From positions 309,969 through 373,968 of the forward strand of contig JAEMGR010000010.1 of assembly GCA_016458225.1 (NCBI GenBank): DNA of 64,000 nucleotides, in the 5' to 3' direction. Below are positions 4,793 through 30,799 of this stretch, one piece after another. Under the pieces are notes generated by a model. The model ran no database searches and was not told the DNA's origin. It saw only the letters and a list, made by a program, of their open reading frames with translations. Made by a program: the position numbers and the translations under genes. This stretch comes from Myxococcaceae bacterium JPH2. GTDB lineage: Bacteria; Myxococcota; Myxococcia; Myxococcales; Myxococcaceae. How positions within the stretch are numbered: the first letter of the stretch is position 1; every line of letters begins with the position of its first letter.

Positions 4793-4831
4793 CACTGATG
4801 AGCCCAACAGCGCCCTATGGGCTCATCAGTG
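4793..4831. terminator. Bidirectional terminator, 13-bp perfect stem
   Basis: CACTGATGAGCCC and GGGCTCATCAGTG flank a 13-nt loop between the convergent sce7726 and HNH genes. No clear T-run follows on either side. Confidence 0.6.
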
Positions 4832-4845
4832 AAGTAGCGGCTGGG

Positions 4846-5934: not shown

Positions 5935-5936
5935 CC

Positions 5937-5952
5937 GCCCCTTCTTGGGGGC
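5937..5952 (+). promoter_or_regulatory. Start-associated hairpin, small terminase
   Basis: GCCCCTTCTTGGGGGC directly followed by ATG at 5953. It begins two bases after the preceding stop codon. Confidence 0.65.
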
Positions 5953-8012: not shown

Positions 8013-8049
8013 TTGAGGGTCCGCATGCGTTCACGTAGCATTAGGCCAT

Positions 8050-9021: not shown

Positions 9022-9044
9022 AGCCGGCACTCCCGATGCAACTT

Positions 9045-9063
9045 GCCGCCCCTTCTGGGCGGC
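9045..9063 (+). promoter_or_regulatory. Start-associated hairpin, portal gene
   Basis: GCCGCCC, CTTCT, GGGCGGC: a perfect 7-bp stem immediately before ATG at 9064. Confidence 0.7.
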
Positions 9064-10425: not shown

Positions 10426-10426
10426 C

Positions 10427-10442
10427 GCCCCTTATCAGGGGC
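10427..10442 (+). promoter_or_regulatory. Start-associated hairpin, head protease
   Basis: GCCCCT, TATC, AGGGGC: perfect 6-bp stem starting one base after the portal stop and ending at the ATG at 10443. Confidence 0.7.
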
Positions 10443-11480: not shown

Positions 11481-11526
11481 GTTGGGCGCCCCTTATCTCT
11501 CTCACACCGCATTGCAGAGGTTGATC

Positions 11527-12735: not shown

Positions 12736-12741
12736 CACCTC

Positions 12742-12767
12742 GGGCCGGCGCTCGCTTGGGCCGGCCC
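12742..12767 (+). terminator. Hairpin after the capsid gene
   Basis: GGGCCGGC, 10-nt loop, GCCGGCCC. No T-run follows, so it may act as an mRNA-stabilising 3' structure or a weak terminator for abundant capsid mRNA. Confidence 0.45.
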
Positions 12768-12800
12768 GCTCCTCCCTCTCACTGCACCACCAGGAGCACT

Positions 12801-13241
12801 ATGCACTCTGACATCGTCAACATCGGGCACCGGTACAAGGCCGACGTCCAGGCCGTCCCGCCGGCCAGCGCCGCGGCGGGTACGCGCAACGGCAACACCA
12901 TCAACGTGAGCGGCTACGGCTCCGGCACCATCGTCGCCAACGTCGGCGCCGCGAGCGGCACGCCGACCGCAACTACCATCACCTACGCGCTCCAGACGAG
13001 TGCGACGGCGGACGGCTCCAGTGGATGGGTGGCGTTGAAGGACATCGACAACAACGCGGTCGTGCTCACCGCCACGGCCGGCGGAGTCGCGGCGGAGAAG
13101 GACTTCAATCTCCAGTATGCGACCCCGGGGCATTCCTTCATCCGCACCGTGGAGACGGTGGCGTTCACCGGAGGGACGGCGCCCGCGGTCGTGACGGGCG
13201 CGACGTTCGTCTTGGGTGGCGGGCGGCGTCTGCCTCTGTAG
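12801..13241 (+). CDS. Putative head decoration / virion structural protein
   Basis: This 146-residue protein is rich in Gly, Ala, Thr and Val, with a beta-strand pattern (TIVANVGAASGT, TITYALQTSATADGSSGW). Position after the major capsid and before the connector genes suits a capsid decoration or minor head protein. CCAGGAG lies 5 bases before the ATG. It is flanked by strong hairpins on both sides, so it can be transcribed with the capsid at a level separate from the tail genes. No named family is recognised. Confidence 0.65.
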   Translation: MHSDIVNIGHRYKADVQAVPPASAAAGTRNGNTINVSGYGSGTIVANVGAASGTPTATTITYALQTSATADGSSGWVALKDIDNNAVVLTATAGGVAAEKDFNLQYATPGHSFIRTVETVAFTGGTAPAVVTGATFVLGGGRRLPL

Positions 13242-13271
13242 TTGGCGCGACGCTCCCGGTCGTGCTGACGC

Positions 13272-13305
13272 GGGCCGGGAGGTGGATTCGTCCGCCTCCC
13301 GGCCC
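13272..13305 (+). terminator. Rho-independent terminator after head genes
   Basis: GGGCCGGGAGG and CCTCCCGGCCC form an 11-bp stem, followed by TTCTTTCGT. It lies between the decoration gene and the connector genes and would attenuate read-through from capsid into tail genes. Confidence 0.65.
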
Positions 13306-13325
13306 TTCTTTCGTCTGAGGTGCAC

Positions 13326-13985
13326 ATGCCCGTTGAAGATTTGCTCACCGTCGCGCAGCTCCCCGCCAGCGTGCGCGACACCGCCGACCCCGAGCGGCTC
13401 CCTCTGCACATCACGGCCGCGTCGCTCGCGCTCGCGGAGTACGTCGGCTATCCCCTGCACCGCCGGACGGGCATCATCGAGGCCGTGGCCAGCCAGGGCG
13501 GCGCGTACCTGTGGCTGGGCTCCGGCGCCGTGCGGCAGGTGACGCGTGTCGTGGTGCGCGGCGCCGAGGTGCCTCCGGACGCGTACGCGCTGGAGTCGCC
13601 GCGCATGGGCCGCATGGTGGCGCGCGGGCGGCGCGGGCCGTTCACGGGTACCTGGACAACGGGCGTGTCGTCCACGCCATTGGACGCCGAGGCCACGGGG
13701 GAAGTTGTCGTCACCTACGACGCGGGCTGGGTGACGCCCGGTCAGGCCGCGTTGGACCCATCGCTCGCGGTGGATCTGCCCGCGCACGTGGCGCTCGCCG
13801 CGCAGCTCGTGGCCACTGCGATGATTCAGCGTGACGGCGCGGAGGACGATGTCGTCTCGGAGTCCATCGGCGATACGTCGCTGACGCGGACGACAGGCGA
13901 GGACGGCCAGGTAGCCGCGCTGCCCGCCCGCGCACGGCAGTTCGTGGCCCAGTACATCCGCCCGCGTGTGGGGGTGTCGTCGTGA
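13326..13985 (+). CDS. Head-tail connector (adaptor) protein
   Basis: This 219-residue protein stands first in the connector series. It begins with an all-helical part (ITAASLALAEYVGYPLHRR), as in HK97 gp6/SPP1 gp15-type adaptors that dock under the portal. It continues with a strand-rich segment (GAVRQVTRVVVRGAEVPPD) and a helical end. The extra middle domain makes it longer than a minimal adaptor of about 110 residues. The ATG at 13326 has GAGG 5 bases upstream; a GTG two codons earlier is possible. The stop overlaps the next start. Confidence 0.75.
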   Translation: MPVEDLLTVAQLPASVRDTADPERLPLHITAASLALAEYVGYPLHRRTGIIEAVASQGGAYLWLGSGAVRQVTRVVVRGAEVPPDAYALESPRMGRMVARGRRGPFTGTWTTGVSSTPLDAEATGEVVVTYDAGWVTPGQAALDPSLAVDLPAHVALAAQLVATAMIQRDGAEDDVVSESIGDTSLTRTTGEDGQVAALPARARQFVAQYIRPRVGVSS

Positions 13986-14305
13986 CGCTACTCGGGCACC
14001 GATTCAACCAGCGGTTTCACCTCGCGCGGCTGCTCCAGTCCGATGCCCGCGGCATGACCGAGTACGCGGACCCCGTGCCGTATCGGTGCCGCTACCAGGG
14101 CAGCACGCGCCGCGTGGTGGACACCAATGGGGACATGGCCGTGACGGAGGGCGTCTACTACACCCCTGTCGAGGTGCGCTCCGGTGACCTGCTTTGGCGT
14201 CCTGGGGATGACCCCCAAGACGAGTCCATGGGGAGACCACCTCTCCGCGTCACTCCTCGCTACAACATGAGCGGCAATCTCGACCACTACGAGGTGTTCG
14301 TCTGA
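13982..14305 (+). CDS. Head closure / head-tail joining protein
   Basis: This 107-residue protein begins at a GTG that overlaps the previous stop (GTGA). Small size, position and a strand-rich sequence (YRCRYQGSTRRVVDTNGDM, VYYTPVEVRSGDLL) match the head-closure proteins (SPP1 gp16 type) that plug the connector after packaging. The ending RVTPRYNMSGNLDHYEVFV resembles the typical last strands of such proteins. Its stop overlaps the next ATG (TGATG), so connector genes are coupled in translation. Confidence 0.65.
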   Translation: MTLLGHRFNQRFHLARLLQSDARGMTEYADPVPYRCRYQGSTRRVVDTNGDMAVTEGVYYTPVEVRSGDLLWRPGDDPQDESMGRPPLRVTPRYNMSGNLDHYEVFV

Positions 14306-14715
14306 TGGGCGCCACTCTTCGAGACGTCGAACTGCACGTGGCCCAGGTGCTCGATGCGGCCGGGCTCGGTCTGTCGATGTCGAGCAAACCTCCGTCGCTC
14401 TACGTGGGGCGGTTCCCCGAGCAGGCTCGCCACGCGCTCGTGGTCGTGCGCGAGGTGGCGGGCGATGCCCCGCTCGACTACCTCGGCACGGGCCGGAGCT
14501 GGCTCGCGCCCGATGTGCAGGTCTACGTCCGCGGCGAGCCCCGTCAGTACCAGGCCGCCCAAGCGCTGGCGCGGCGTTGCTGGTCAGTCCTTCACCGGGC
14601 GCAGGTGCCCGGGTACTCGTCGTGCCTGGCGCAGGGAATGCCCAGCTACATGGGGCCGGACGGTGCCGAGGCGCACCGATTCGCCTTCACCGTCACGCTC
14701 GGCTACGCGGCATGA
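14305..14715 (+). CDS. Minor capsid / tail-completion protein
   Basis: This 136-residue protein has an alpha-beta pattern with LYVGRFPEQARHALVVVREV near residue 33 and WLAPDVQVYVRGEPRQYQAA in the middle, ending in RFAFTVTLGYAA. Proteins of this kind between head-closure and HK97-gp10-like genes act as tail terminators or minor capsid proteins. The exact assignment between this and the following gene is by order only. Confidence 0.6.
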   Translation: MGATLRDVELHVAQVLDAAGLGLSMSSKPPSLYVGRFPEQARHALVVVREVAGDAPLDYLGTGRSWLAPDVQVYVRGEPRQYQAAQALARRCWSVLHRAQVPGYSSCLAQGMPSYMGPDGAEAHRFAFTVTLGYAA

Positions 14716-14723
14716 CGGAGGGC

Positions 14724-14739
14724 GCCCCTTAAGAGGGGC
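14724..14739 (+). promoter_or_regulatory. Start-associated hairpin, gene at 14740
   Basis: GCCCCT, TAAG, AGGGGC: perfect 6-bp stem ending directly at the ATG. The duplicate of the form at 10427 differs only in the loop. Confidence 0.7.
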
Positions 14740-15153
14740 ATGGCCGTCAAGGTGGTCTTGGACATCGTGAAGTTGAAGCACCTCCAGGTGCACGCGCCGC
14801 AGGTGCTTGACGCGCTCGACGTGCCGATGCGTGCAGCGGTCGCCGATATCCTCTCGCTGTCGCGATTCATGGTGCCCCGCGGCGACCCAGACGACGACTC
14901 GAATCTCCTCGAGTCGGGTTTTGTCTCGGGCCCCCACCGCAACATGTCCGCAGCGCTCTCGTCGTCCTGGTCGTGCGGATACGAGCACCCGCAGGCCGGC
15001 GCGATCCACGAGGGATTTCACTGGGGCTCACAGACCGTAGACCCCGCACCCGAATGGCTCAAGTTGGCTTTCAAGGCGCGCCGCGGACGTGCGCGCAAGG
15101 GCGTCACGCAAGCCCTTAAGGACTATCTCACCAAGCAGTTTCCACCCAAGTAA
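14740..15153 (+). CDS. HK97 gp10-like tail component
   Basis: This 137-residue protein has a helical N-terminus with AVADILSLSRFMVPRGDP, then the pattern ending in a basic C-terminal helix (RRGRARKGVTQALKDYLTKQ). That is the layout of HK97 gp10-type neck proteins, in which a helix, a tyrosine-rich middle and a basic tail are typical (here HPQAGAIHEGFHWG). It should sit at the head-tail junction. It starts at a leader hairpin and is followed after 14 bases by the major tail protein gene. Confidence 0.65.
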   Translation: MAVKVVLDIVKLKHLQVHAPQVLDALDVPMRAAVADILSLSRFMVPRGDPDDDSNLLESGFVSGPHRNMSAALSSSWSCGYEHPQAGAIHEGFHWGSQTVDPAPEWLKLAFKARRGRARKGVTQALKDYLTKQFPPK

Positions 15154-15167
15154 GGAGAAGCGACGTC

Positions 15168-15602
15168 ATGTCCGAACCCATCTCAAACATGCTGAGCAAG
15201 GTTTACTTCACCGCCTTGCCCACCCCCGTCGCCGACATGGTGGCGGCCGACCTGCTCGACGGAATCAACGAAGTCACGGTCACCGTGACGTCCGACACCA
15301 CGCCGAAGAACTACTACGGCGGCGGAGGCTGGAGCAGCTCCGCACTGACCCTCCGCAAGTTCTCCGGCAGCCTCGGCGGCCACCGCTTCGAGGGCAGCAC
15401 GTCGCAAGGACTGCTCAAGCAGCACTTCATGAGCGGGGCCGATGGCTACCTGACCATCATCACCAACGAGGCGGGCACCCCCGGCAAGAAGGGCGTCCGG
15501 TACGCGGTGAAGATCACCTCCTTTGATGAGACCGGGCCGAGCACGGACGTCCGCAAGCTGTCGTGCGCGTTCGACGGACAGGGTGCGCCGCTCGACGTGT
15601 AG
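15168..15602 (+). CDS. Major tail tube protein
   Basis: This 144-residue protein is located directly before the tail chaperone genes, where siphophages keep the tube subunit. Its sequence is strand-rich (NEVTVTVTSDTTPKN, ALTLRKFSGSLGGH, GYLTIITNEAGTPG, RYAVKITSFDE), consistent with the beta-sandwich tube fold. Subunits stack as hexameric rings whose number is set by the tape measure. AAGGAG lies 10 bases before the ATG. A decapitated GGCCCTTCTT box follows the stop. Confidence 0.75.
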   Translation: MSEPISNMLSKVYFTALPTPVADMVAADLLDGINEVTVTVTSDTTPKNYYGGGGWSSSALTLRKFSGSLGGHRFEGSTSQGLLKQHFMSGADGYLTIITNEAGTPGKKGVRYAVKITSFDETGPSTDVRKLSCAFDGQGAPLDV

Positions 15603-15644
15603 CGGCCCTTCTTCTCATCACACCCGCAACACCAGGAGACCAGC

Positions 15645-16031
15645 ATGAGCAACGAGACCATCCAGCACCGCAAGCCGGTGGGCACCCTCCGGCAGTTCCA
15701 CAAGCGCATCGAGATCGACAAGACCGAGTACGACATCCGCTGCCCCACGAGCGGAGAGAAGATCGATGTCCTCGTGGCGAGCCAGAAGGCTGGGGACCTC
15801 GACGCCAACAACCAGCCCGTGGACTACGCGGCTGGCTTGCGCTTCCTCGCACGCACCGCGATCGCGAGCCTGTACTACCCGAGCAGCTCGACCCACGTCT
15901 TCACGCAGGAGGACATGCCGACGGTCAAGAATGAGCCCTGGCTCGAGCAGTACGGCCGGGACTTCGCGGCAGCGTTCGCCGGCCAGACGGTTGCTGAAGC
16001 CCGGGGAAACTCCGAAGCCACCCCGAGCTAA
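15645..16031 (+). CDS. Tail assembly chaperone G
   Basis: This 128-residue protein occupies the lambda gpG position before the tape measure. It is helical and mildly acidic, with a Trp/Tyr-containing middle. The zero frame ends at a TAA at 16029-16031. A canonical -1 slippery heptamer lies six codons before the stop, so a fraction of ribosomes should continue as the GT fusion. G and GT coat the tape measure and recruit tube subunits during tail building. The ATG has CCAGGAG upstream. Confidence 0.8.
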   Translation: MSNETIQHRKPVGTLRQFHKRIEIDKTEYDIRCPTSGEKIDVLVASQKAGDLDANNQPVDYAAGLRFLARTAIASLYYPSSSTHVFTQEDMPTVKNEPWLEQYGRDFAAAFAGQTVAEARGNSEATPS

Positions 16032-16231
16032 GAGCACTCGTCGGGGTGGCGCGAATGATGGGTTGCTCGCCGCGCGAGGTGAGCACGTGGCCCTGGGAGG
16101 ACATCGTCTACATCCTCGCTTACTGCGCGGAAGAAGAGGCGGAACTCAAGGCCGCACGGAGCGGAGTAGGCAACGGCGCGGGTAGTAGCAAGAGCCAAAG
16201 CCGAACGTTTGTCTATCGAAAGGCAGAGTGA
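15645..16231 (+). CDS. Tail assembly chaperone GT fusion by -1 programmed frameshift
   Basis: Slippage at 16004-16010 joins the first 122 residues of G to 73 residues read in the -1 frame, giving 195 residues. The fused part starts LRSHPELRALVG and contains STWPWEDIVYILAYCAEEEA, a compact helical T domain. The -1 frame is closed by a TGA at 15995, so the usable slip window is only about 35 bases, exactly where the heptamer lies. The internal ATG pair at 16046 could allow separate T expression, but the frameshift explains the layout best. The tape measure ATG follows 3 bases after the stop. Confidence 0.8.
16004..16050 (+). promoter_or_regulatory. -1 ribosomal frameshift signal
   Basis: Slippery heptamer G GGA AAC at 16004-16010 in the correct phase (codons CGG GGA AAC), a 6-nt spacer, then a perfect 10-bp stem: GCCACCCCGA at 16017-16026 with TCGGGGTGGC at 16041-16050 and a 14-nt loop that contains the zero-frame stop. 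This is the standard X-XXY-YYZ plus structure layout. Confidence 0.85.
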
Positions 16232-16234
16232 GTC

Positions 16235-19144
16235 ATGGCAGGCGAAGGCGGACTGAAAGTCGGAGACCTGTACGTCGTAGTCACGACGTCAGTCGGTGAG
16301 GCCATCGCCAACCTTGGCAAGCTCGTCAAGTCGGTCGAGAAGGCCGCGAAGCAGGTGAAGGAGGCGTCGAAGGACATCGGCGAGATAGGCATGGTGGTGG
16401 CGGCTGGCATCGCGGCAGCCGTCGCCGCCGCCGCGCAGTCGAACGAGAAGCTCAAGAAGGAGATCACCCGCCTCCGAGATCTCCTCTACACAGTGGTGGC
16501 CGAGATTGGAGACATGTTCCGTCCGCTCGTGAAGCAGCTCACGGACGGAGTTTCGCGACTCGTAGCGAGATTCCAGGCGCTCTCGCCCGAGTTGAAGCAG
16601 CACGCGGCGCAGTGGGCCACATGGGTGGCTGGCGCTGGGCTCGCTATTGGGGCTGTCGGCAAGCTCGCGGGCGTGGTCGAGGGGTTGGCCAAGGGGGCGG
16701 GGCTTGCCATCCAGGTGACTGGCTCCCTCATCGAAACCATGAAGGGCCTCGGCCCGGTGCTCAATACTGTGGGGCCGGCCGCCGCCAAGGCAGCCCAGTC
16801 GTTTCAGTCGTTGATGCGCGCCGACATCGGCTCGTCACTGGCCAAACTCTCGATCAAGCAAACGTTCGCCTCGTTCGGCGCGGGGCTCAAGGCGGCGGGC
16901 ACAGCGATTGCCGATTTCGCCAAGGCGACCCCGTCCGCGATGCAGAGCATAGGGAAGATGCTCGGCTCGTTCGGCAGTGCGTTGGTCCCCATCCTCGCGG
17001 TCGCTGCGGCGCTCGCGGCAATCACCCTGCTCGTGGGCAGCTTGTACAGGGGCTGGGGAGACCTGCGCGTCATCGCGGGCGATGCAGCCGCCGCCATGAC
17101 CAGGGGCATCGGCAAGGTGATGGGCGTCGTGGCGGACCTGGGGAAGAAGGTCTGGGGCGTCTTCACGACGATGTTCGAGGGCATCACCTCAGTCATCCGC
17201 GCGCTCGTGGAGAAGCAGCTCGACTTCATCGCCTACCTGGTCTCCGGGTCCGCTCGCCTCCTCGCACCTGTCGCGCGCGCGGCGAAGATGCGAGACACCG
17301 AGGCGGCACTGGCTGCGGCCGGGAAGCTGACGGGGCAGGACTTGGCCGCAGGGCTCGGTTCCGTCGGAGTGAAGGCCGCGAACGTCATCGGCGTGGCGAC
17401 TGCGAAAATGGAGAGTGCGGCGGGCCCGGTGGGCAGCGCCATCACCGATGCGCTCAAGGCCGGCGCGCAAGACTTTGTTGATACGACCAAGACGATCGGC
17501 GGTGCCGTCTTCGACTACCAGTTCGGCTGGATGAAGGGGGACGGACTCAAGTACGCGATCGACGGCGTGAAGCAGTTGGGCGCTGCCATCGGAGAAAGCA
17601 CCGGTCTCGCCAAGCTCTCGGCCATGCAGCTCGAAGACGTCGGCGAGCCCGGCAAGCCGCGCATTCGGTACTCCGAGGGGCGACAGACGGAGGTGGATGC
17701 CGAGCGCGACAAGAAGGAGCATGGCCGCAACCTGAGTTACGCGCAGCTCCAGGCGTACCAGGATGAGGACATGGCGCGGCAGATGCGGCGCGCAGAGGAG
17801 GCCGAGTCCGCGGCGTTCAGCGCGGCAATGACTCGCTACGCGTCCGAGGAGCAGCACGACCACGAACTCGCCGAGCTGACTGCGGATGCGTCCGAGGAGG
17901 CGCGTGCCGAATTGACCGCGGCAATGCGTTCGGCCACTGACGCCGGGGAATCGGCGTTCCGCACGATGCGCGATGAGGCCGCGGCGTTCGCGGACGCTGC
18001 CGAGCAGGCATTGGAGGACGCGAAGAACGGATTCATGCAGAAGGTGGTCGGCAGCCTTGGGCGTCTCGGCCAGGTCATCAACAGCGCAGTCGAGGGGTTT
18101 CAGGCCGGGGGCATCTGGGGCGCGGTCATCGGCGCTGTCGCGGAACTGTTTCTGGGCTCCAAACAGTTTCAAGACCTCATCGCGATGACGAATGCTGTCA
18201 TCGGGGACCTGTCCGACGGACTCGGCGCGCTCGCGAGCGGGGCCCAGACCCTCGTCGGGGCGGTCAAGCCGATCATCGACGTGGTGATGGGCGTGTTGAA
18301 ACCACTGCTGGATGCGATTGGGCGCTCCATCGAGCCCCTCCTCAAGCCCATTGCCATGGTGGCCCTGCTCCTCCAGGGCCTCCAACCTGTGCTGACGCTG
18401 TTGATTGAGGGGCTCATGAAGACAATGAAACCCCTAATGTGGCTCAATGAGGTGGTCATCCGAGGGCTCTTTGAAACAATTCGCTACGTTGGTATCGCTA
18501 TCCTTTGGGTGGTGAAGGGCATCGGCGGACTGTGGAATGGCATCATTGGTGCCATCCAGTCAGTCTTCAAGGCGCTCGGCGATATCAGTGTCTTTGGCGC
18601 CCACCCGCTTGGATTTCTCAAAGGCTGGGCAAACTCGCTCGGCAAGGTCAAGGTGGACACGGAGTCGCTCGCCAAAGCCATCCAGGAAATGGAGCACCTG
18701 TCCTGGTCGGCAGCGCTCGCGAAGGCGCAGGAGACGGCGGAAGTGTTGAAAAACACGGACGCGCTCCAGGCTGCGACTGAAGCACTGAGCAACGTGCCGA
18801 GCGCGTGGAGAGTCGCGCTCCGCCGCTTCGACGCGGAGGACCCCGAGGAGCGCGGTGGACAGGGCAGCTCCGGCACGAGCGGTGTCTCCGTGCCCGGCGC
18901 GGGCATCCCCACGCAAGCGGACATCGACCGCGCGACGGGCGGTGTCCCGGGTGAGCATGGCGCGAGCCCCATCACCGGCAACACGACGGTGGGCGTGGGA
19001 TCGCTGCAAGTCAATATCCACGGCACGGACATAGACGACGCCATGCAGCGCGCGCAGGACTTGGCGGGACGTCTCGGATTCGAGTGGGCGCGCCGCGCGA
19101 TTGGCGGCGCGCAGCGGCTCGGGCCACGCTACGGCACCCCTTAG
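16235..19144 (+). CDS. Tape measure protein
   Basis: This 969-residue protein is the longest gene of the morphogenesis run and follows the G/GT pair. The N-terminal part is a long alternation of Ala/Gly-rich hydrophobic helices (GMVVAAGIAAAVAAAAQ and others). The middle is a charged helical region (about residues 490-600), and a second hydrophobic block spans about 690-790. It sets the tail length and is ejected with DNA; the hydrophobic blocks may insert into the host membrane. The C-terminus is Gly/Ser-rich and then strand-like. No lysozyme or peptidase motif is visible, consistent with a separate NlpC/P60 protein. Confidence 0.9.
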   Translation: MAGEGGLKVGDLYVVVTTSVGEAIANLGKLVKSVEKAAKQVKEASKDIGEIGMVVAAGIAAAVAAAAQSNEKLKKEITRLRDLLYTVVAEIGDMFRPLVKQLTDGVSRLVARFQALSPELKQHAAQWATWVAGAGLAIGAVGKLAGVVEGLAKGAGLAIQVTGSLIETMKGLGPVLNTVGPAAAKAAQSFQSLMRADIGSSLAKLSIKQTFASFGAGLKAAGTAIADFAKATPSAMQSIGKMLGSFGSALVPILAVAAALAAITLLVGSLYRGWGDLRVIAGDAAAAMTRGIGKVMGVVADLGKKVWGVFTTMFEGITSVIRALVEKQLDFIAYLVSGSARLLAPVARAAKMRDTEAALAAAGKLTGQDLAAGLGSVGVKAANVIGVATAKMESAAGPVGSAITDALKAGAQDFVDTTKTIGGAVFDYQFGWMKGDGLKYAIDGVKQLGAAIGESTGLAKLSAMQLEDVGEPGKPRIRYSEGRQTEVDAERDKKEHGRNLSYAQLQAYQDEDMARQMRRAEEAESAAFSAAMTRYASEEQHDHELAELTADASEEARAELTAAMRSATDAGESAFRTMRDEAAAFADAAEQALEDAKNGFMQKVVGSLGRLGQVINSAVEGFQAGGIWGAVIGAVAELFLGSKQFQDLIAMTNAVIGDLSDGLGALASGAQTLVGAVKPIIDVVMGVLKPLLDAIGRSIEPLLKPIAMVALLLQGLQPVLTLLIEGLMKTMKPLMWLNEVVIRGLFETIRYVGIAILWVVKGIGGLWNGIIGAIQSVFKALGDISVFGAHPLGFLKGWANSLGKVKVDTESLAKAIQEMEHLSWSAALAKAQETAEVLKNTDALQAATEALSNVPSAWRVALRRFDAEDPEERGGQGSSGTSGVSVPGAGIPTQADIDRATGGVPGEHGASPITGNTTVGVGSLQVNIHGTDIDDAMQRAQDLAGRLGFEWARRAIGGAQRLGPRYGTP

Positions 19145-19149
19145 TGGGG
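19137..19149 (+). promoter_or_regulatory. Start-associated hairpin, distal tail gene
   Basis: CCCC, TTAGT, GGGG, then one A and the ATG at 19151. The tape measure stop codon (TAG, 19142-19144) lies in the loop. Confidence 0.6.
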
Positions 19150-19150
19150 A

Positions 19151-20032
19151 ATGGCCTATCTGTCCCTTTCCGGCATAGAGGTCCGCGTCTCCACGGAGCG
19201 CGGCCTCACCCAGCGCCCGACGTACCTTGGGGGCAAGCAGCGCACGTTTGCCGGCTGGGCACAGTCGGGCGTGCGCACCGTTGTGGACACCTGGTCGGGC
19301 GGCACGCCGCCCATGTCCGTCGACGAGGCGCAGGCGGTGCGCGCGCTCATCGAGGGCGCCGGGCACTACTGGGGCTTCACTACGGCGGGCATCAACGGCC
19401 TCACGAGTAGCAAGGGGCTCGCGTGCGCGAGCTACACCGAGGGCGGCATCAGCGTGGGCGGCTCGACTGCGGGCAAGTTTGGTCCGGGACTCCAACTCCT
19501 GTATCACGCGCCGGATCTCGCTGAGGTCACGTGGCAGGTCGGACTGGGTGCCGCGCAGAACAACGTCATCGCCGTATGGGTCCGCCGGCCGTCCATCCTG
19601 GACGGCGGTTGGCATCACCTCGTCTGTGACAGCCTGAATGACGTCTCGTGGCTCGACGGCGAGCCCTGGCTCGCGCAGAGCGACATCGCGGCGGAGGTTG
19701 GTGTCGCGGTTGAGGCGTATGCCGATGGGCACATCAGGCTTGGGTGGAACTGGGGCGACGGCCCGACGGACATCATCAGCTTTGACGACCTGGTCGTACT
19801 GCCGATTCCGTCGGTGCCCGCGTCCTGGCCACGCCAAATGTATCAGTGGGGCCGCTCCTTCAGGTTCGGCCGCCTCCCGTACCACTACATGGCTGGCGCG
19901 CTCGTGCCAGGTCGCGTGGCCGAGGTCCTCGGCAGTGTGACTGAAGCGACCTCCGTCGAGTGGTCCGAGCGCGGCGAGCGCGTCCAGTGCCAGCGCCTGG
20001 AATTTGAACTGATGCAGCAGCCGGCCACGTGA
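19151..20032 (+). CDS. Distal tail protein / tail-tip adaptor
   Basis: This 293-residue protein directly follows the tape measure. A short N-terminal strand region (YLSLSGIEVRVSTERGL) is followed by a jelly-roll-like middle with many Trp/Gly residues (VIAVWVRRPSILDGGWHHLV) and a C-terminal strand region with RFGRLPYHYMAGALVPGRVA. Position and fold pattern suit the hub that joins the tube to the tip; the middle may be a carbohydrate-binding sandwich. In most siphophages the peptidase and tail-tip genes come next. Here they are on the minus strand at 1-2,179. Confidence 0.65.
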   Translation: MAYLSLSGIEVRVSTERGLTQRPTYLGGKQRTFAGWAQSGVRTVVDTWSGGTPPMSVDEAQAVRALIEGAGHYWGFTTAGINGLTSSKGLACASYTEGGISVGGSTAGKFGPGLQLLYHAPDLAEVTWQVGLGAAQNNVIAVWVRRPSILDGGWHHLVCDSLNDVSWLDGEPWLAQSDIAAEVGVAVEAYADGHIRLGWNWGDGPTDIISFDDLVVLPIPSVPASWPRQMYQWGRSFRFGRLPYHYMAGALVPGRVAEVLGSVTEATSVEWSERGERVQCQRLEFELMQQPAT

Positions 20033-20082
20033 CGCCCCTTCTGTGTTTCGTCGTTCCCTCGCAGACCTGGAGCACACCAACC

Positions 20083-20712
20083 ATGAAACGTATCAAGTAC
20101 ATCCTCGGCCTCTCCCTGGCGGCGCTCATCGGCGCGCCCGCCATCGCGCTCGCTGCGACGGGCGACCCCTCACAGCCCACCATCGGGTCCGCGCTGGTCG
20201 GCGCCGTCGTCCAGGCGCTGCCGGTCGTGTGCACTGCGCTGGCGGGCCTCATCGCCGCCGCGCTCTACGCCCTCACGCGCATGCTGTCCGCGCAGGGCAC
20301 GGAGTCCAAGCTCGCGCAAGTCCTGTCCCGGGCATCGACGCTCGCCGAGGCCGTCGTCCGCGAGGTGCAAGTGACGCTGCGCGCGGAGTTGGAGAAGGCG
20401 GCCGCGGACGGAGTGCTCACGACGGACGAACTGGCGAAGATCAAGGCCGCCGCTGTGGCGCAGCTCAAGGCCAGCCTGGGCGAGCACGGATTGAAGGAAC
20501 TGCAGGACGTCCTCCGGCTGACCGCCGGGAACATCGGGGTCTACCTGGGCGGACTCATCGAGGCCGCCGTGGACCGCATGAAGGCCAGTGGGGCGAAGCC
20601 CGTTGTCTCCCTGGGGCCGCTCGAGCTGGGCGCGTCCGGCGTTGCGGCCATCATGGCCCAGCCGGCCATCCAGGTGCCGAGCGCGCCGGTCCCTCAGATG
20701 CCCCGCGGCTAG
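20083..20712 (+). CDS. LLH-type holin-like membrane protein
   Basis: This 209-residue protein starts with a signal-like hydrophobic segment (YILGLSLAALIGAPAIALA), then a second one (GSALVGAVVQALPVVCTALA and following). A long charged helical region leads to GGLIEAAVDRMKA near residue 165. Membrane segments followed by such an IEAAV helix are a hallmark of the LLH family of phage holins. Position at the end of the tail genes agrees with a lysis role, although no muramidase follows here. The ATG at 20083 is used; a box GACGCCCCTTCT occurs right after the preceding stop. Confidence 0.6.
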   Translation: MKRIKYILGLSLAALIGAPAIALAATGDPSQPTIGSALVGAVVQALPVVCTALAGLIAAALYALTRMLSAQGTESKLAQVLSRASTLAEAVVREVQVTLRAELEKAAADGVLTTDELAKIKAAAVAQLKASLGEHGLKELQDVLRLTAGNIGVYLGGLIEAAVDRMKASGAKPVVSLGPLELGASGVAAIMAQPAIQVPSAPVPQMPRG

Positions 20713-20988: not shown

Positions 20989-21720
20989 TTAGTGGAGCTG
21001 CGCCGCTGGCGAGTCGCCGCGCAGGTCCTGCACGGACCGCTCTCGATAGATGACGTCGCTCGGCCCGAGCGCGCTCGCGACCTCGACGAAACGCTCGGAG
21101 ACGATGGGCACAAGGCTGTTCGTCGCGCCGAAGACATCCGCGTCCGGGATGGTGGACCCATCAAGGACGTCGGTCCTGCCCGCGCGCCGCGGTGGACGAC
21201 CGCACACAGGACAGGCGTCCTTGTGCGGTCCCTCCGGGATGAACTGCGCGACGCGAGGCGCGTAGAGCTCTATCAGCGGCGGCGCGCTCTTGCTCCGCTG
21301 GCTGATGCGGGTGGGCACGGGGATGAGGCCGCGCAGGCCGGCAGCCTCAAGCCTAGCGAGCGTGTCCGCCCGCACGACCAGCTCCCATGACGGGTAGCAG
21401 TGGACTGGCCCGAACCGGCCCGTTGACGTCCCTACGAGTGGCCCAAGGTGCTGTCCAGGGCCGAGGGGCGCGTCGGGGGCATAGGGTTGCGCGTACTCCA
21501 GGAGCTGCGTGTACCTCGCGAGGGACACCGGCATCTGCGGAATCAGCTCAATGCGCTGCGGACATGCACTCAAGTCCACCAGGGGCAGCGAGTAGCCGGT
21601 CGCCCAGATACCACACTCGGGGCAGTCAACAGACGGCAGCATCCACCGGCGGCCGGCGCTGTAGTGGCCCTTCCAAACCAGCTTGTCCCCTGGTGTCGAT
21701 TGCAGTTCGTAGTACCGCAT
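20989..21720 (-). CDS. sitI6: SitI6-family double-CXXCG immunity protein
   Basis: This 243-residue cytoplasmic protein carries the two CxxCG motifs that define the family: CPECG near residue 32 and CPVCG near residue 175. These probably bind one zinc between them. In Myxococcus the sitA and sitI genes encode polymorphic toxins moved between cells by outer membrane exchange and the matching immunity proteins. The gene begins inside the stop of the toxin gene (TGATG), so toxin and immunity are made together. It should neutralise the nuclease domain of the partner. The start MRYYELQ matches family starts. Confidence 0.85.
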   Translation of the reverse strand: MRYYELQSTPGDKLVWKGHYSAGRRWMLPSVDCPECGIWATGYSLPLVDLSACPQRIELIPQMPVSLARYTQLLEYAQPYAPDAPLGPGQHLGPLVGTSTGRFGPVHCYPSWELVVRADTLARLEAAGLRGLIPVPTRISQRSKSAPPLIELYAPRVAQFIPEGPHKDACPVCGRPPRRAGRTDVLDGSTIPDADVFGATNSLVPIVSERFVEVASALGPSDVIYRERSVQDLRGDSPAAQLH

Positions 21721-22439
21721 CACTTCTCCCGTGCCGCCTGGGGCGACAGGTCCCAAGCTTGCCAGTACGTGCCCATGGGGCCAACCAGGCCGTACTTGGT
21801 CATGAGCGCCCCGGCGAACCTGAAGTAGTCGTCGTTGGACGTATTGCTGTCGGTGTGCGAGATGAACGCGTTCCAATCAGAGTTCCACGGCCCCCCACGC
21901 CCATCCCTGTGAATGTAGCGGTGGATGTCCAGCGGAATGGGCATCACCCACTGATGGGGGTTGATGCCGCGGCCGATGAAGTGCTCCCAGAACGCGCGCG
22001 GAAAGATGTGGTGCTTCTCTTTGCGCTTGGTCTTGTACTCGGCCCATGCCTGCTCTCGTGCCCTGACGCTGGGCAGCACCTCCTCGGGAGCTGAGTGCAT
22101 CCGGAACACCAAGACGGGGAGCGAGTCCCCGGGCAGGCCCTGCGCGCTGCCCCATGTGCGCGCCGGGCCGCTGCCGGGCGCGACCATGACGGCGCCGCCG
22201 CCCATGTCGAGCGCACGCACGACGCGACCGGGCGCGACGTCGCGACAGTCAAAGAGGCCGCAGTGCCCCGAGGTGGCGCAGACCGGGACGAGACACCTGT
22301 CCTCGTCGCCGTCGTCGTCCTCGCTGTCGGGCTCCTCCGCCTCTCGCCACACCGCGAGGGGCGAGCCCTCGCGCAGCTCCGGACCCGACGCGCAGTTCCA
22401 CAGCGACACAGCCAGCAGCACCAGCAACGGCAAACGCAT
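21720..22439 (-). CDS. sitA6: SitA6-family polymorphic toxin lipoprotein
   Basis: This 239-residue protein has a lipoprotein signal (MRLPLLVLLAVSLWNC) and an acidic linker with cysteine pairs. The C-terminal toxin domain contains KEKHHIFPRAFWEHF, then LDIHRYIHR and WNSDWNAF. That layout is the His-rich HNH/AHH-type nuclease seen in the myxobacterial lipoprotein family DUF2380. SitA toxins sit in the outer membrane, pass to contacting cells by TraA/B-mediated exchange and kill those lacking the immunity protein. Known sit loci often lie in prophages, as here. The accessory gene sitB is not recognised beside it. Confidence 0.85.
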   Translation of the reverse strand: MRLPLLVLLAVSLWNCASGPELREGSPLAVWREAEEPDSEDDDGDEDRCLVPVCATSGHCGLFDCRDVAPGRVVRALDMGGGAVMVAPGSGPARTWGSAQGLPGDSLPVLVFRMHSAPEEVLPSVRAREQAWAEYKTKRKEKHHIFPRAFWEHFIGRGINPHQWVMPIPLDIHRYIHRDGRGGPWNSDWNAFISHTDSNTSNDDYFRFAGALMTKYGLVGPMGTYWQAWDLSPQAAREK

Positions 22440-22951
22440 GCACTCCCCCGAGGTGTGAGGGGAGCAGCGTAGGAGGCCCAGTCAGGCGGCAAGCGCACAC
22501 GGGCACGGGGTGTTCATTAGACGACACAGGGGTCGCATCCGATGTGGCTCCCGCTCACCTCGGTGGAACGGCGTGCTCCTGGCTCTGGTGTGCGGGATGC
22601 TGGAATTGGTGGGCGAACTTGACGTCCACCGCATCGAGCTAGGTGGAGCACGTCTCGCAATGAGTGGTAGACGTGGCAGTTGCCCGCTAGGACTTGCGCG
22701 GCGATGAGAGGCCAGCGCACCTGGAGATTGAGGGCGCCCAACTGTGTGGCGAAGGCAAACGGCTTCCTGCTTTTCTCCCACAGGTCCAAGCACGTGGTGT
22801 GGCTGCGCGTTTCGCGTTAACTTCCGGCGGAAGTCGACCTGTGCCAACGCCACATGCCGCACCTCGTCATTACTACTTACAGAACTCAGAGATCGGAATG
22901 CCTGGTTGACAGACTCGCCAAGTCGCGGCGAAGCTATTCTAGGGAGGCATC
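22440..22951. other. Intergenic region with a possible gene remnant on the minus strand
   Basis: About 510 bases without a convincing intact gene. On the minus strand two overlapping frames contain protein-like pieces. One is near 22,862-22,780 (EVRHVALAQVDFRRKLTRNA); the other is 22,789-22,620 (DLWEKSRKPFAFATQLGALN, then VRWPLIAAQVLAGNCHVYHS). A single frameshift between them would make one product, so a decayed gene is possible; its family is not recognised. The right end must hold the promoter of the RiPP genes and is AT-richer. Confidence 0.35.
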
Positions 22952-23233
22952 ATGCCAACAAAGCAGGATAAGCCAACTGCAAAGGACGCGGAATCGAAGA
23001 GCAGCAGTCGTCGCGGGAAGAGGTCATCTTCAACAAAGAATGCGATTCTTAAGCAGCTTGCTGTCGTAGACCGCGGGCTGATCACGTCGCTCTCGGTCAC
23101 TATCGCTCGCGGCCGAAGCGCGACCGTAGCAAGAGGCAAGATCAAGAAAAAGAAGGCGGAGTGGCTGAACGACTTTAACGACGCCTCAACTCAACCCGGC
23201 TCTGGGACCCCCTTCGGCAAGACGCAACCGTGA
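22952..23233 (+). CDS. Candidate RiPP precursor peptide (three-residue cyclophane type)
   Basis: This 93-residue peptide is rich in Lys, Ser and Arg, with no homology I can name, directly before and overlapping the radical SAM maturase gene (GTGA). The leader-like part runs to about residue 66 and ends in a basic KIKKKK. The C-terminal core holds three aromatic-x-x motifs of the type joined by cyclophane maturases: W71-L-N73, F75-N-D77 and F88-G-K90, in EWLNDFNDAS and GTPFGK. AGGGAGG lies 5 bases before the ATG. The modified product, if any, is unknown. The precursor call rests on coupling, size and core motifs. Confidence 0.68.
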   Translation: MPTKQDKPTAKDAESKSSSRRGKRSSSTKNAILKQLAVVDRGLITSLSVTIARGRSATVARGKIKKKKAEWLNDFNDASTQPGSGTPFGKTQP

Positions 23234-24399
23234 CGCTATCCTACCTCGTCCTGCAGCCGACATCGCTGTGCAATCTCAACTGCACGTACTGCTATGTTCC
23301 GGGACGGCGCAACACTTCTCCGATGTCTGCCGAGACGCTCACGCGAGTCTACGAGTGTCTCCAAGAGTCGACTCATATTGCGAAGAGCCTGCACTTGCTC
23401 TGGCATGCGGGCGAGCCTCTGACAGTGGGGCTCCCGTACTTCCGCAGCGCCGTTGCTGCACAACGATCATACTCAGTACTCGCCGATGCGACGCAGTCGA
23501 TTCAGTCAAATGGCACCCTGATCACTGATGACTGGTGCCATTTCTTCCAGGATAATAAGATCGGAGTTGGAGTTAGCCTCGACGGCCCAGAGTGGATACA
23601 TGATGGTTCTCGACGAACATGGGGAAACACGGGCAGTCACGCCAAGACGATGCGCGGTGTCCGGCTTCTCCAGAAACATGGCGTTGACGTCCACGCGTTA
23701 GCTGTCATTACGTCGGAGTCGCTCGATCACGCCGAATCGTTCCTGCAATTCTTTCTCGACGCTGGCATCTCGCAGATCGCGATAAACATTGAGGAAATAG
23801 AGAATAGCCACGACCAATCGTCACTTGCTCGCCACCCCCGTCGGCAGCAAGAGCGGTATGGTCGCTTTATCGCAGAACTCTTCGAACTCTGGTGGCCACA
23901 CCGAGAGCGCGTGGGAATTCGGGAGTTCGAGTTCATTATCGATGTGGCAGAGAATCTGAATCGTGACCCTGAGTTCGTCCCAGCACCTCTAGTGACGAAG
24001 CCTGGCGCGATGATCTCTGTATCGTCGCGCGGCGACATCGTTCCTTTCTCGCCGGAGCTAGTGGGGGCCACAAGCTCCCGTTACCACAATTTCATCGTTG
24101 GGAACGTACATTCGCTCGCATCGTTTGATGACATCCGAGCCAATTCCGTCTACCAGCAGATGGCTCGAGACGTCACGGCTGGAGTCGAGAACTGTCGCCG
24201 TGAGTGCGGCTACTACTCGCTGTGTGGAGGCGGCGTTCCAGGCAATAAGTACTTCGAGAATGGATCATTTGACACAACGACGACAATGTTCTGCCAGCTC
24301 CAACGGAAGACATTGGCCGACGTCGTCGTTAGCGCCCTCATCGAGAAGTCACACGCATTCCGCGCGACGAAAAAGCTTGGTCGTCGCGGTTCACCATAA
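23230..24399 (+). CDS. Radical SAM/SPASM peptide maturase, cyclophane-forming (GrrM/XyeB-like)
   Basis: This 389-residue enzyme has the radical SAM CxxxCxxC motif at Cys14, Cys18 and Cys21 and a C-terminal SPASM-type region: FSPELVG near residue 278, then CRRECGYYSLCGGG and VPGNKYFENG. The CGGG-x-P-x-NK-x-F-E-x-G signature is typical of maturases that link an aromatic ring to the beta-carbon two residues on, making three-residue cyclophanes. It starts at a GTG overlapping the precursor stop, so expression is coupled. Base use is less GC-rich than the phage structural genes, which suggests a different origin. No transporter or protease gene is adjacent. Confidence 0.85.
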   Translation: MTLSYLVLQPTSLCNLNCTYCYVPGRRNTSPMSAETLTRVYECLQESTHIAKSLHLLWHAGEPLTVGLPYFRSAVAAQRSYSVLADATQSIQSNGTLITDDWCHFFQDNKIGVGVSLDGPEWIHDGSRRTWGNTGSHAKTMRGVRLLQKHGVDVHALAVITSESLDHAESFLQFFLDAGISQIAINIEEIENSHDQSSLARHPRRQQERYGRFIAELFELWWPHRERVGIREFEFIIDVAENLNRDPEFVPAPLVTKPGAMISVSSRGDIVPFSPELVGATSSRYHNFIVGNVHSLASFDDIRANSVYQQMARDVTAGVENCRRECGYYSLCGGGVPGNKYFENGSFDTTTTMFCQLQRKTLADVVVSALIEKSHAFRATKKLGRRGSP

Positions 24400-24486: not shown

Positions 24487-26193
24487 CTACGGCGAGCGCG
24501 GAGCCAATGTGCCGTCGCTCCACGCGACCTCTCCGTCCAAGACGGTCAACACGCTTACCGTCTTGGGCAGGTCCTCCGGAGGGACCGCCCTCGGATTGAT
24601 GACATCCCGGTCGAGGATGGCGAAGCTTGCGCGCTGTCCGACAGCGATTCGCCCCTGAGAGTCAGGCGCCTGACCTCGAGCGCTCGAAGCGATGGTGGTG
24701 TAACCCGCCAAGAACGCTTCCCGACTGATCGCCTCCCTCTGGTTGAATGGATGCGTGGTGGCAATCTGCATTTCGAGCCAGGGCGACGTCGGATATCCAA
24801 ACGCGTCCGTCCCAAAGGCAAGGGACACTCCGGCGTCGCGCATTGACTGGAGCAGTTCGGTATCTGCGACCGAAGGCGCTTGGAGGCGGGCCGTCGTGAG
24901 GCCCGGAACTGACGCGAGGTGCGTGGCGTTCTGGATGACTGGCACGCCATAGGCCGCGAGACGCGAGAGCTGACTGCGCGTCACGAGGTCGCCATGCTCC
25001 ATGGTGATGGCGCCTGCCCAGGACCCGCCACCGACCTCGGCCAGCGACTGGAGGAGCAGTTCGACTCCGCCGTCGCCGAGGGCATGAAACAGAACATGCG
25101 CCCCCATTGCTCGCGCGTCGCGCAGTACCGAGACAGCGAAAGCCTTGCTGACGTCGGTTGAGCCATACCAGGGTGCATTAAACGTGTACGGGCAGGTCGA
25201 GGGCTCAGAGTACGCCAGCGGAGGCTGGGGCAGCCGGGCCGCCGTGCAGTCTCCAGGAGCCCCGTCCAGAAACAGTTTCCAGACGCGCCGGCCGTTGTGC
25301 GGCCCGGGACGCGGGCCGCTCGCAGTGATGATATCAACCGGAATGAAGGGGACGCGCGTCCGGCTCGCCACCGCAGCGCGGATGCCCTCGATGCGCGCCC
25401 CAGAGACCGCGAAGTTGATGTCGTAGACGACACCGCCCCCGAAGGCGGCCCATGCCTGGCCGTACTGCACGAGCCCGTCAGTGAGGAATGAGTCCGGAAG
25501 ATAGGCCGTAAGGGCCTGAAAAACTGGCAGTTCCATCATTTCTTGAATGAAACCGGTCAGCCTGCCGCTCGGGTCGCGAGACAGGCGTCCGGTCTCACTG
25601 TCTGGCGCGCCGTCTGCGTACCCTGCCGCAGCAAGGAGCCGCGAATTGACTGCCAGGCCGTGGCCGCCCCAATCGGCGGCAAGCACGAGGTGAGCCGGCG
25701 CGACGTCGTCAAGGAAGGCGCGCACGTCCTTCGGGCACGTCTTGTAGAAATTGATGCCAACGAAGACCACGACCGGTGTGCCGGCCGGGCGCTCCGCGGC
25801 CTTCGCGGCCACGAGTGCCCGAACCTCCTCGGCCGTGGGACCGTACTCGCCTCGCTCGACCCACTTGGTGTCATTCGCGATCCAATCGGGGTTGGCGAAC
25901 GACTCCGGATGCGAGTGCGCATCCACAAGCGCCGGGATGACTCGGCGCCCCTTGAGGTCCACCACGGCGACATGGGGCCGGGCCTCAAGCTGGTGCGTGG
26001 CGCCCACGGCGATGATGCGTCCTTGGGAGACCATGAACGCCTGGCCATCCGGTTGCCCCTCTCCCAGCCAGACACGCCCATTGACATACAGGGTTGCAGA
26101 GGCCGACGGCGGCAAGGGATTGCCCGCGCAGGCAGCAGGTGGCAACGCGAGCGCCAACAGCAGACACGACAAGACAGCAGGACGGCAGTCCAT
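24487..26193 (-). CDS. YtcJ-like metal-dependent amidohydrolase, lipoprotein
   Basis: This 568-residue enzyme of the amidohydrolase-3 group has metal and catalytic motifs in order: DAHSHPES (HxH) near residue 95, KLFLDGAPGD with the candidate carbamylated Lys near 310, FHALGDGG near 375, MEHGDLV near 405 and FGTDAFGYP near 470. It starts with a signal peptide and a Cys after LPPAA, so it is probably lipid-anchored outside the cytoplasm. The start at 26193 (MDCRPAV) has AAGAGG upstream. Substrate unknown; such enzymes hydrolyse amide, imide or ester bonds. Inside a prophage it is a cargo gene. Confidence 0.82.
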   Translation of the reverse strand: MDCRPAVLSCLLLALALPPAACAGNPLPPSASATLYVNGRVWLGEGQPDGQAFMVSQGRIIAVGATHQLEARPHVAVVDLKGRRVIPALVDAHSHPESFANPDWIANDTKWVERGEYGPTAEEVRALVAAKAAERPAGTPVVVFVGINFYKTCPKDVRAFLDDVAPAHLVLAADWGGHGLAVNSRLLAAAGYADGAPDSETGRLSRDPSGRLTGFIQEMMELPVFQALTAYLPDSFLTDGLVQYGQAWAAFGGGVVYDINFAVSGARIEGIRAAVASRTRVPFIPVDIITASGPRPGPHNGRRVWKLFLDGAPGDCTAARLPQPPLAYSEPSTCPYTFNAPWYGSTDVSKAFAVSVLRDARAMGAHVLFHALGDGGVELLLQSLAEVGGGSWAGAITMEHGDLVTRSQLSRLAAYGVPVIQNATHLASVPGLTTARLQAPSVADTELLQSMRDAGVSLAFGTDAFGYPTSPWLEMQIATTHPFNQREAISREAFLAGYTTIASSARGQAPDSQGRIAVGQRASFAILDRDVINPRAVPPEDLPKTVSVLTVLDGEVAWSDGTLAPRSP

Positions 26194-26304
26194 ATGCGTA
26201 CCTCTTGGTTGTACTGCGTGGTGAGACTGAGGGCCTGGACAGGGCGAGCGAGGGGGTTGCGTCCCGCCCCGCCCAGGCGGCGCCACGAGGGCGCCTCAGA
26301 TAAA

Positions 26305-29100: not shown

Positions 29101-29304
29101 ATGGAGACTCAGAGCGCGCAGTTTGAGGATGGCTGGGAGGTCGAGCGTGCCGCCCAGTTCTTGGGGATCTCACCGAGAACGCTGTATCGGCTCACCAATG
29201 AGCGGAAGGTGCCCCACTACAAGGTTGGTGGAGCGCTCCGATTTGAGCCATCCAAGCTGCGTGCGTGGCGCGCAGCTGGCGGGAGCGACAATGCCCAGCG
29301 GTGA
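29101..29304 (+). CDS. xis: Excisionase / helix-turn-helix DNA-binding protein
   Basis: This 67-residue winged-HTH protein of the MerR/excisionase type (HTH_17) has WEVERAAQFLGISPRTLYRL, then VPHYKVGGALRFEPSKLRAW. These proteins bend DNA near the attachment site and steer the integrase towards excision. AGGGGG lies 6 bases before the ATG, and the gene overlaps the start of int by 14 bases, so the two are co-translated. Confidence 0.85.
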   Translation: METQSAQFEDGWEVERAAQFLGISPRTLYRLTNERKVPHYKVGGALRFEPSKLRAWRAAGGSDNAQR

Positions 29305-30799
29305 GAAGCTACCCTCGGGGAGCTTTCGGGTGAGGTGGCGGCGCGCGGATGGCTCGGTCGCCAAAGAGGTTATCCCAGCGGCCACGCGCGCAGAGGCGCG
29401 CCGCAAGGCGCACCAACTTGAAGAGGCCGCATGGATGGAGCGACAGGGCCTGGCGGATGCGCGCCCGGTCGAGCTCACTGTGTCTGAAGCAATCGCGCTT
29501 CGGCTGGCCGCCCTCCCCGTCGAGTTCGCCAGCGCCAAGAATCTCCGCGAAAAGCTCGCATACGTCGAAGCGGCGCTTGGGGCGCGAAAGCTCGGGAGTG
29601 TCGCCGCCGATGACGTGCTCATGATGCTGGCGAAGCTCACGCATCTGGCCCCTCAGACACGTGAGCACATCCGCATGACGGGGCAAGGCCTCTTTACCTT
29701 CATGCGGACGAAGACCAAAAAGTACAAGGGCGACAATCCCTTCAAAGACGCAGGTCCTGTCTCGGTCCCCAAGAGACAGGTGCGTGTCTACCCGCGCGAC
29801 ATGCTACCGCGTCTCTTTGAGACGCTGGCGCCCGAGTACCGGGCGCCAGCGGCAACAGCCCTAATGACTGGAGTCCGCAAGGGCGAAGTGCGCGCAATGC
29901 GCAAGGAGTGGGTCAATCTACGGGAGCGATACATCCTCATCGCCGGAGGAGGTCATCGGCAGACAACCAAGGGGGGCCGTGAGCGCCGAGTGCCCATCCC
30001 AGAACTGTTGGTCCCGTTCATCGAGGCGCAAATGGAGACCCCTGGCCCCTATCTCTTCCCGAAGCCCGGCGACAGCGAGCCACACAGCGCGCACTGGCGC
30101 GTCCATGACATCATGGCGCGAGCGCTAGTCCGCATTGGAATGATCAAGGCTTGGCGCCCATATTGCTTGCGCCGGTCGTGCAAGTGGAAAGACGCACCTG
30201 CATTCGAGGTGGGGCAGGCCACGTGCCCGAACTGCGGGCGCAAGGCGCGATGGAAGGCCCTCCCGGTGGACCTGCGTTTCAAACACCTGCGGAGCACGTG
30301 GGGCACCACGGCATACAGCGTGACCAAGGACCTGCGCTTGGTGGCGGATGTGCTTGGGCACGCGGACATGGAGACCACGCGAGAGCACTACGCCGTCGCA
30401 CTCCCAGAGCATGTTGTTGCGGGCGCGGAAGCCACGGCGGCCATGCTGGCGCCATGGGCTCCTCGTGGAAAGAATCGAGAGGAAATCCAGCCAAAGGTGA
30501 GCACTCGCCCTCATGGCGCCGCAGCCGAAATCGTGAATCCAATTGAAGACTTAGGAAAACTGAGCAAACGAAAGGAGCGCTGTCCAATGGCATACGACGG
30601 TTTCCTAAACCGCAGGCCACAGGTTCGATTCCTGTCGGGGCCGCTTCGCAACAGCCTGATTTTCCTGGCCTTTTTGCTCCAGCGCAGGCTGGCCCTTGAG
30701 CGAGCCAGCCAAGTCTCGGGCGCCACGTGGGCAATTCTCCCACCTGTCGATGCCCTCTCCAGCGGGCGTTCCCGTATCGACCGTAGGACTCGACCGTAG
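29291..30799 (+). CDS. int: Tyrosine recombinase integrase with host-derived C-terminal tail
   Basis: This 502-residue integrase catalyses insertion and excision at the tRNA site. Catalytic residues are visible: Arg in MTGVRKGEVR, Lys in TKGGRERRVP, His and Arg in KHLRSTWGTT, then LGHADMETTREHY with the second His and the Tyr. Between them there is a zinc-ribbon-like insert (CLRRSC ... CPNCG). After the catalytic Tyr the frame runs through the tRNA-Arg 3' half (residues RRPQVRFLSGP) and continues about 50 codons into flanking DNA. In the free phage the C-terminus would be different. This copies the arrangement known for myxophage Mx8, where attP lies inside int. Confidence 0.88.
   Translation: MPSGEKLPSGSFRVRWRRADGSVAKEVIPAATRAEARRKAHQLEEAAWMERQGLADARPVELTVSEAIALRLAALPVEFASAKNLREKLAYVEAALGARKLGSVAADDVLMMLAKLTHLAPQTREHIRMTGQGLFTFMRTKTKKYKGDNPFKDAGPVSVPKRQVRVYPRDMLPRLFETLAPEYRAPAATALMTGVRKGEVRAMRKEWVNLRERYILIAGGGHRQTTKGGRERRVPIPELLVPFIEAQMETPGPYLFPKPGDSEPHSAHWRVHDIMARALVRIGMIKAWRPYCLRRSCKWKDAPAFEVGQATCPNCGRKARWKALPVDLRFKHLRSTWGTTAYSVTKDLRLVADVLGHADMETTREHYAVALPEHVVAGAEATAAMLAPWAPRGKNREEIQPKVSTRPHGAAAEIVNPIEDLGKLSKRKERCPMAYDGFLNRRPQVRFLSGPLRNSLIFLAFLLQRRLALERASQVSGATWAILPPVDALSSGRSRIDRRTRP
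30596..30643 (+). other. Attachment site: 3' half of tRNA-Arg(CCT) inside int
   Basis: An anticodon arm CGGTT-TTCCTAA-AACCG-like segment (anticodon CCT), variable bases, a T arm ACAGG-TTCGATT-CCTGT and the acceptor strand CGGGGCC are read in order. No matching 5' acceptor (GGCCCCG) or D arm lies upstream, so the copy is incomplete. This is the expected relic of integration into a tRNA gene; the intact tRNA should be at the other prophage end. Confidence 0.75.

Follow-up and report, generated by a model that had tools for sequence, protein, structure and literature searches.

What would a pair of overlapping genes inside a myxobacterial prophage, one encoding a short peptide and the other a radical SAM enzyme, make, and what would the product do there? 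Triceptides, peptides that carry three-residue cyclophanes, have been described as chromosomally encoded bacterial products with mostly obscure roles. In the 64,000-nucleotide stretch of the Myxococcaceae bacterium JPH2 genome that we analyzed (the window), a 93-residue peptide is encoded at 22952..23233 (+ strand) and a 389-residue maturase at 23230..24399 (+ strand). The two intact reading frames share the four bases GTGA, as the initial annotation had proposed, and the GTG start of the maturase lies inside this overlap. We consider it fairly probable that the pair is carried as cargo by a temperate phage of myxobacteria, makes a RiPP of the triceptide class and serves as conflict cargo of the lysogen. 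The cyclophane chemistry and the cargo status are well supported; the biological role we infer. The chemistry is of a known kind, and both the peptide and the viral setting look new.

The maturase belongs to the GrrM/OscB-type radical SAM/SPASM cyclophane-forming peptide maturases. It scores 369.2 bits against TIGR04261 (IPR026357; cut-off 310) over residues 8–370. The signatures that had suggested a cyclophane-forming enzyme from the outset, CxxxCxxC, FSPEL and CGGG-x-P-x-NK, are all present: C14xxxC18xxC21, FSPEL with Pro275 and Glu276, and CGGGVPGNK among Cys322, Cys326 and Cys332, followed by Cys355. Across the family, these catalytic and SPASM signatures are invariant or nearly so, with Cys14, Cys18 and Cys21 invariant and Cys322, Cys326, Cys332 and Cys355 conserved. 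The AlphaFold2 model of the enzyme is confident (pLDDT 95.3). Its closest solved fold is that of ChlB bound to the ChlA leader (PDB 9gm3; TM 0.80), with which it shares 21% sequence identity, followed by the anaerobic sulfatase maturase anSME (4k37); no open paper on ChlA/ChlB was found in the literature searched. The fold shared with anSME, together with sub-threshold scores to alternative families, would allow the enzyme to be a sulfatase maturase or another SPASM maturase (of the sactipeptide, ranthipeptide or daropeptide kind) instead of a cyclophane synthase. We regard this as very improbable, because every other listed SPASM maturase family scores the protein far below its own cut-off (181 bits against 349 for the sulfatase maturase model, 103 against 650 for DarE, 101.5 against 340 for PapB). 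XyeB, FxsB, YhhB, AmcB and DarE share the SPASM superfamily and a related ring-forming chemistry, but the window maturase falls below their curated cut-offs and their precursor types differ. The adjoining peptide contains no cysteine, which excludes thioether chemistry on it; a sactipeptide or ranthipeptide identity, which calls for a cysteine donor, was therefore rejected.

The peptide has the layout expected of a triceptide precursor. It starts with ATG, directly preceded by a strong Shine-Dalgarno sequence, GGGAGG, and the upstream region (22906..22951, + strand) contains a TTGACA hexamer at 22906. The promoter scan found no good sigma-70 pair there, and the terminator scan found nothing convincing for the cassette. 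The peptide is basic (20 Lys and Arg against 7 Asp and Glu) and has no signal peptide and no strongly hydrophobic segment. Residues 1–70, basic and free of aromatics, form the putative leader and residues 71–93 the candidate core. The only aromatics, Trp71, Phe75 and Phe88, all lie within the last 25 residues, where each opens a motif, and the three motifs occupy exactly the residues that the initial annotation had assigned to them: Trp71-Leu-Asn73 and Phe75-Asn-Asp77 (codons within 23162..23182, + strand), both predicted cross-link sites, and Phe88-Gly-Lys90 (23213..23221, + strand), a possible third. WLN, FND and FGK thus all fall within the last 23 residues of a peptide that adjoins its maturase. 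Three motifs of the form [WFY]-x-[NDK] within the final 25 residues arose in a fraction of 1.25e-4 of 200,000 shuffles, and among 781 stop-free stretches of 60–160 residues in the window only the peptide itself shows the pattern; as the pattern was chosen after the peptide had been seen, the p value of about 1e-4 is somewhat generous.

The motifs can be compared with those processed by OscB, which joins C7 of Trp to Cβ of Asn or Asp and C4 of Phe to Cβ of Asn (review, PMC11002830). This makes Trp71-Leu-Asn73 a direct match, whereas Phe75-Asn-Asp77 would be a small extension of the characterized chemistry and Phe88-Gly-Lys90 a larger one. In the proposed sequence of events, the peptide would be translated first and its leader bound by the overlapping maturase, which would cleave SAM to yield a 5'-deoxyadenosyl radical. 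In each motif, the radical would take a β-hydrogen from the third residue, and that carbon would be joined to the aromatic ring. The expected products are bridges between Trp71 and Asn73 and between Phe75 and Asp77, each with a loss of 2 Da, and possibly a further bridge between Phe88 and Lys90. One minimal substrate would then offer W-x-N, F-x-D and F-x-K motifs together. The window system resembles the known OscB/GrrM systems in its TIGR04261 score and its W-x-N motif, but many peptides next to GrrM (L133–L135, L007 and L010, for example) begin like a signal peptide and have a repeated W/G/N-rich core, both of which the window precursor lacks; its cassette is also phage-borne and has no accessory genes. 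Typical relatives repeat one motif; here the three motifs carry three different third residues (Asn, Asp and Lys).

The closest maturases, 34–40% identical, come from Dyella, Herbidospora, Geodermatophilus and a phage contig. No close homologue was found in 195 Myxococcota genomes, where other matches are about 30% identical, and phage and plasmid collections contained none above 36% identity. A maximum-likelihood tree places the window maturase, on a long branch, in a moderately supported (83/95) clade of eight with Dyella L003, Herbidospora L101 (the same locus as L002), Geodermatophilus L103 and L104, G996 L106, G260 L105 and the phage contig L089. Upstream of these maturases lie peptides with motifs of the same types, W-x-N/D, F-x-D/N and F-x-K: repeats of SFxD in Herbidospora L002 and of PFTD in Dyella, EWSDSFSDWFW in L103, SFSN/TFRD/SFTK in L106, AWRDFNKGGFGK in L105 and NWTNHGWRNGFDNFGN in L089. 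No peptide was identified in L104, where the contig ends within the locus. The F-x-K motif recurs in the L105 and L106 peptides, in L105 as an exact FGK, which supports the third window motif as real. The leaders of the cellular sister cassettes differ from that of the window peptide: they are shorter, and most have an LLxxLxxIDP-like motif that it lacks. Such a motif had seemed plausible by eye as a shared leader element and was dropped, because an HMM built from five sister leaders misses the window peptide, ranking it 772 among 3,049 sequences, no better than shuffled sequences or random ORFs. The idea that the entire clade is associated with phages was likewise rejected: inspection of the ORFs, on which the classification of neighbors in the sister loci is based, shows ordinary chromosomal surroundings for the other cellular members. 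Judged from these contexts, the maturase type itself is not phage-specific.

The unconserved leader bears on whether the 93-residue peptide is the substrate at all. The maturase could be real and its true substrate encoded elsewhere, with the 93-residue ORF a chance frame or an unrelated basic protein; some GrrM relatives do have a downstream substrate or none that is visible. The peptide matches no NCBIfam model at E values up to 10 and no Pfam model at E values up to 1, so that the early impression of a precursor outside the named families holds within the libraries examined. It has no homologue in 96 Myxococcaceae genomes either, the lone weak match being a spurious one inside a long ORF. 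Homologous maturases are accompanied by different precursors, and the 93-residue frame shows no conservation, which goes halfway towards one of the outcomes that the initial annotation had named as speaking against its reading; what persists across the clade is the type of core motif. We nevertheless find a substrate elsewhere quite unlikely in view of the four-base overlap and strong Shine-Dalgarno site, the clustering of the motifs, a GC content of the peptide gene as low as that of the maturase gene, and the upstream motif peptides of the sister maturases.

The cassette lies in a temperate prophage. A structural module at 6513..20712 (+ strand; PHROGs and Pfam) includes genes for the terminase (6513), portal (9043), head protease (10443), capsid (11482), tape measure (16235) and a holin-like protein (20029), together with a tail protein (19151, + strand) recognized by its conservation in related prophages. 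A tyrosine-recombinase integrase gene (29123..30799, + strand; phrog_1, E=1.4e-40; PF00589) overlaps the right attachment site, a 48-bp core (30598..30645, + strand) that matches the 3' part of tRNA-Arg(CCT) exactly. The left copy lies outside the window, at about 302,665–302,712 of contig C10, inside the intact tRNA-Arg(CCT) gene, and the two identical copies enclose 37.9 kb. In another genome of this genus, the host sequence on both flanks is collinear and the site holds no prophage. With head, tail and packaging genes, an integrase and direct attachment repeats, the prophage suspected from the beginning is confirmed as genuine, and its ends are exact. Just outside it lies a gene for a CmlA-like diiron β-hydroxylase (33859–35448), possibly the sign of a biosynthetic locus.

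Within the prophage, the cassette follows the holin-like gene and precedes that of the integrase. Its composition sets it apart: GC3 is 0.65 for the precursor and 0.64 for the maturase gene, against 0.72–0.90 for the phage and cargo neighbors, which suggests that the pair was acquired from elsewhere and is probably foreign relative to the phage genes. Homologues of the tail gene at 19151 occur in 18 other genomes of the family, and none of ten related prophage regions examined contains the cassette. In those relatives, this tail gene is followed by a gene for an 800-residue tail protein; here its counterpart, 49% identical, lies far to the left, from the end of L099 to position 1612 of the window, and on the opposite (−) strand. 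The tail module of the prophage thus appears rearranged or inverted relative to its relatives. This displacement would fit a decaying or non-functional cargo that was picked up incidentally and is not expressed, as would the lack of a promoter or terminator consensus in the scans and the sporadic occurrence of the cassette. We think such decay unlikely, since both frames are intact, all catalytic motifs are kept and the fold is confidently predicted.

What the modified peptide would do is suggested by its surroundings. On one side, the cassette is flanked by a divergently oriented pair of genes for a SitA6-family polymorphic toxin lipoprotein (21720..22439, − strand; TIGR02269, 135.7 bits, cut-off 85.75) and a SitI6-family double-CXXCG immunity protein (20989..21876, − strand; TIGR02264, 142.9 bits, cut-off 100.15), and on the other by the converging gene of an amidohydrolase-family protein (24487..26286, − strand; PF07969, 156 bits). 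SitA toxins are transferred by outer membrane exchange, and prophage-like elements often carry sitAI genes (PMC5562445). No exporter, protease or peptide-immunity gene for the cassette is present among the neighbors examined, in agreement with the initial annotation as far as exporter and protease are concerned; that account had mentioned neither the SitA6/SitI6 pair nor the related cassettes that further phage contigs carry, described below. Because a signal peptide, an exporter and a nearby protease are all absent, the product would most likely form in the cytoplasm and be kept there until it is set free by host proteases or by lysis. Its most likely role would be that of a lysogenic-conversion cargo in conflict, directed against competitors of the lysogen or against other phages.

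The same chemistry could serve the phage without any release of the peptide, which would then act inside the cell in host takeover, superinfection exclusion or an anti-phage effect. A signal peptide, exporter and immunity gene are all missing; related phage cassettes adjoin lytic or replication genes; and intracellular anti-phage lanthipeptides are known (PMC12360287). The adjoining SitA6/SitI6 pair, in contrast, points to cell–cell competition. We take a purely intracellular action to be a real, if lesser, possibility. As a role, competition cargo draws support from the SitA6/SitI6 neighbor, and phage conflict inside the cell draws it from the missing genes for export and immunity and from the phage cassettes L089 and L147; the two appear about equally likely.

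Our preferred reading of the cassette as a triceptide-making conflict cargo draws on the curated cut-off passed by the maturase, its invariant residues, the confident model, the OscB precedent, the motif clustering and the peptides of the clade. It draws further on the prophage ends and genes, the low GC3, the SitA6/SitI6 neighbor and the related phage cassettes. Against it stand a leader unlike those of the sisters, a peptide without a homologue, the mixed third residues, the lack of an immunity, export or protease gene and of a clear promoter or terminator, and the otherwise chromosomal clade. The location of a two-gene version in a prophage, beside a kin-discrimination toxin pair, makes the function testable by comparing the lysogen with a cured or deleted derivative.

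An alignment search of IMG/VR yielded two further types of phage contig with related cassettes, L089/L143 and L147; no report of phage-borne triceptides was found in the literature searched. On these phage genomes, as in the window, a GrrM-like maturase directly follows a motif peptide. In L089 (IMGVR_UViG_3300030098_006389, 7811–9989), a 63-residue motif peptide (NWTNHGWRNGFDNFGN) precedes a protein of 678 residues which, unlike the window enzyme, is a maturase fused to an extra domain. Its N-terminal part passes TIGR04261 at 330 bits; its C-terminal domain has a homologue (E=3e-14) in a stand-alone protein that adjoins the GrrM maturases L108 and L109 and, judging by an HxD...H pattern, may be an oxygenase. 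A Holliday junction resolvase and an endolysin are encoded nearby. L147 (IMGVR_UViG_3300034375_012045, 3529–6556) is an AT-rich phage contig in which a motif peptide (MPWKNWENWVN) is followed by a maturase whose best match is GrrM, at 259 bits and thus below the cut-off of 310; the same run of genes includes a JmjC/cupin-like hydroxylase candidate, a kind of neighbor that the window cassette lacks; a terminase and an endolysin are encoded on the same contig. As the other cellular members of the clade are not in prophages, phage carriage is sporadic but repeated, and the related cassettes suggest that phages use cyclophane chemistry more than once. Each of the three phage lineages has its own motif peptide and a GrrM/OscB-like maturase, some with hydroxylase-like domains or partners. 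It is conceivable, though we hold it only tentatively and find it rather doubtful, that triceptide cassettes are a recurrent cargo of at least three unrelated phage lineages (the temperate myxophage, L089 and L147), whose cross-linked peptides would act inside the cell in infection or in phage–phage conflict.

Three further loci show other arrangements of such maturases. On a Geodermatophilus contig (L140), a span of 16 kb contains the genes of two GrrM-type maturases and of two candidate peptides that differ from each other. In L145 (623–9829), a GrrM/OscB-family maturase (359 bits) without an obvious precursor lies in an apparent nSTAND-ATPase conflict locus; the contig is classed as viral, and no phage gene was seen on it. 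In G996 (L142, 1154–8096), the sister maturase and its peptide adjoin genes for a GoxA/LodA-like CTQ oxidase and a GoxB/LodB-like flavoprotein maturase, both below their curated cut-offs, which hints that a cyclophane maturase and a CTQ oxidase may be connected.
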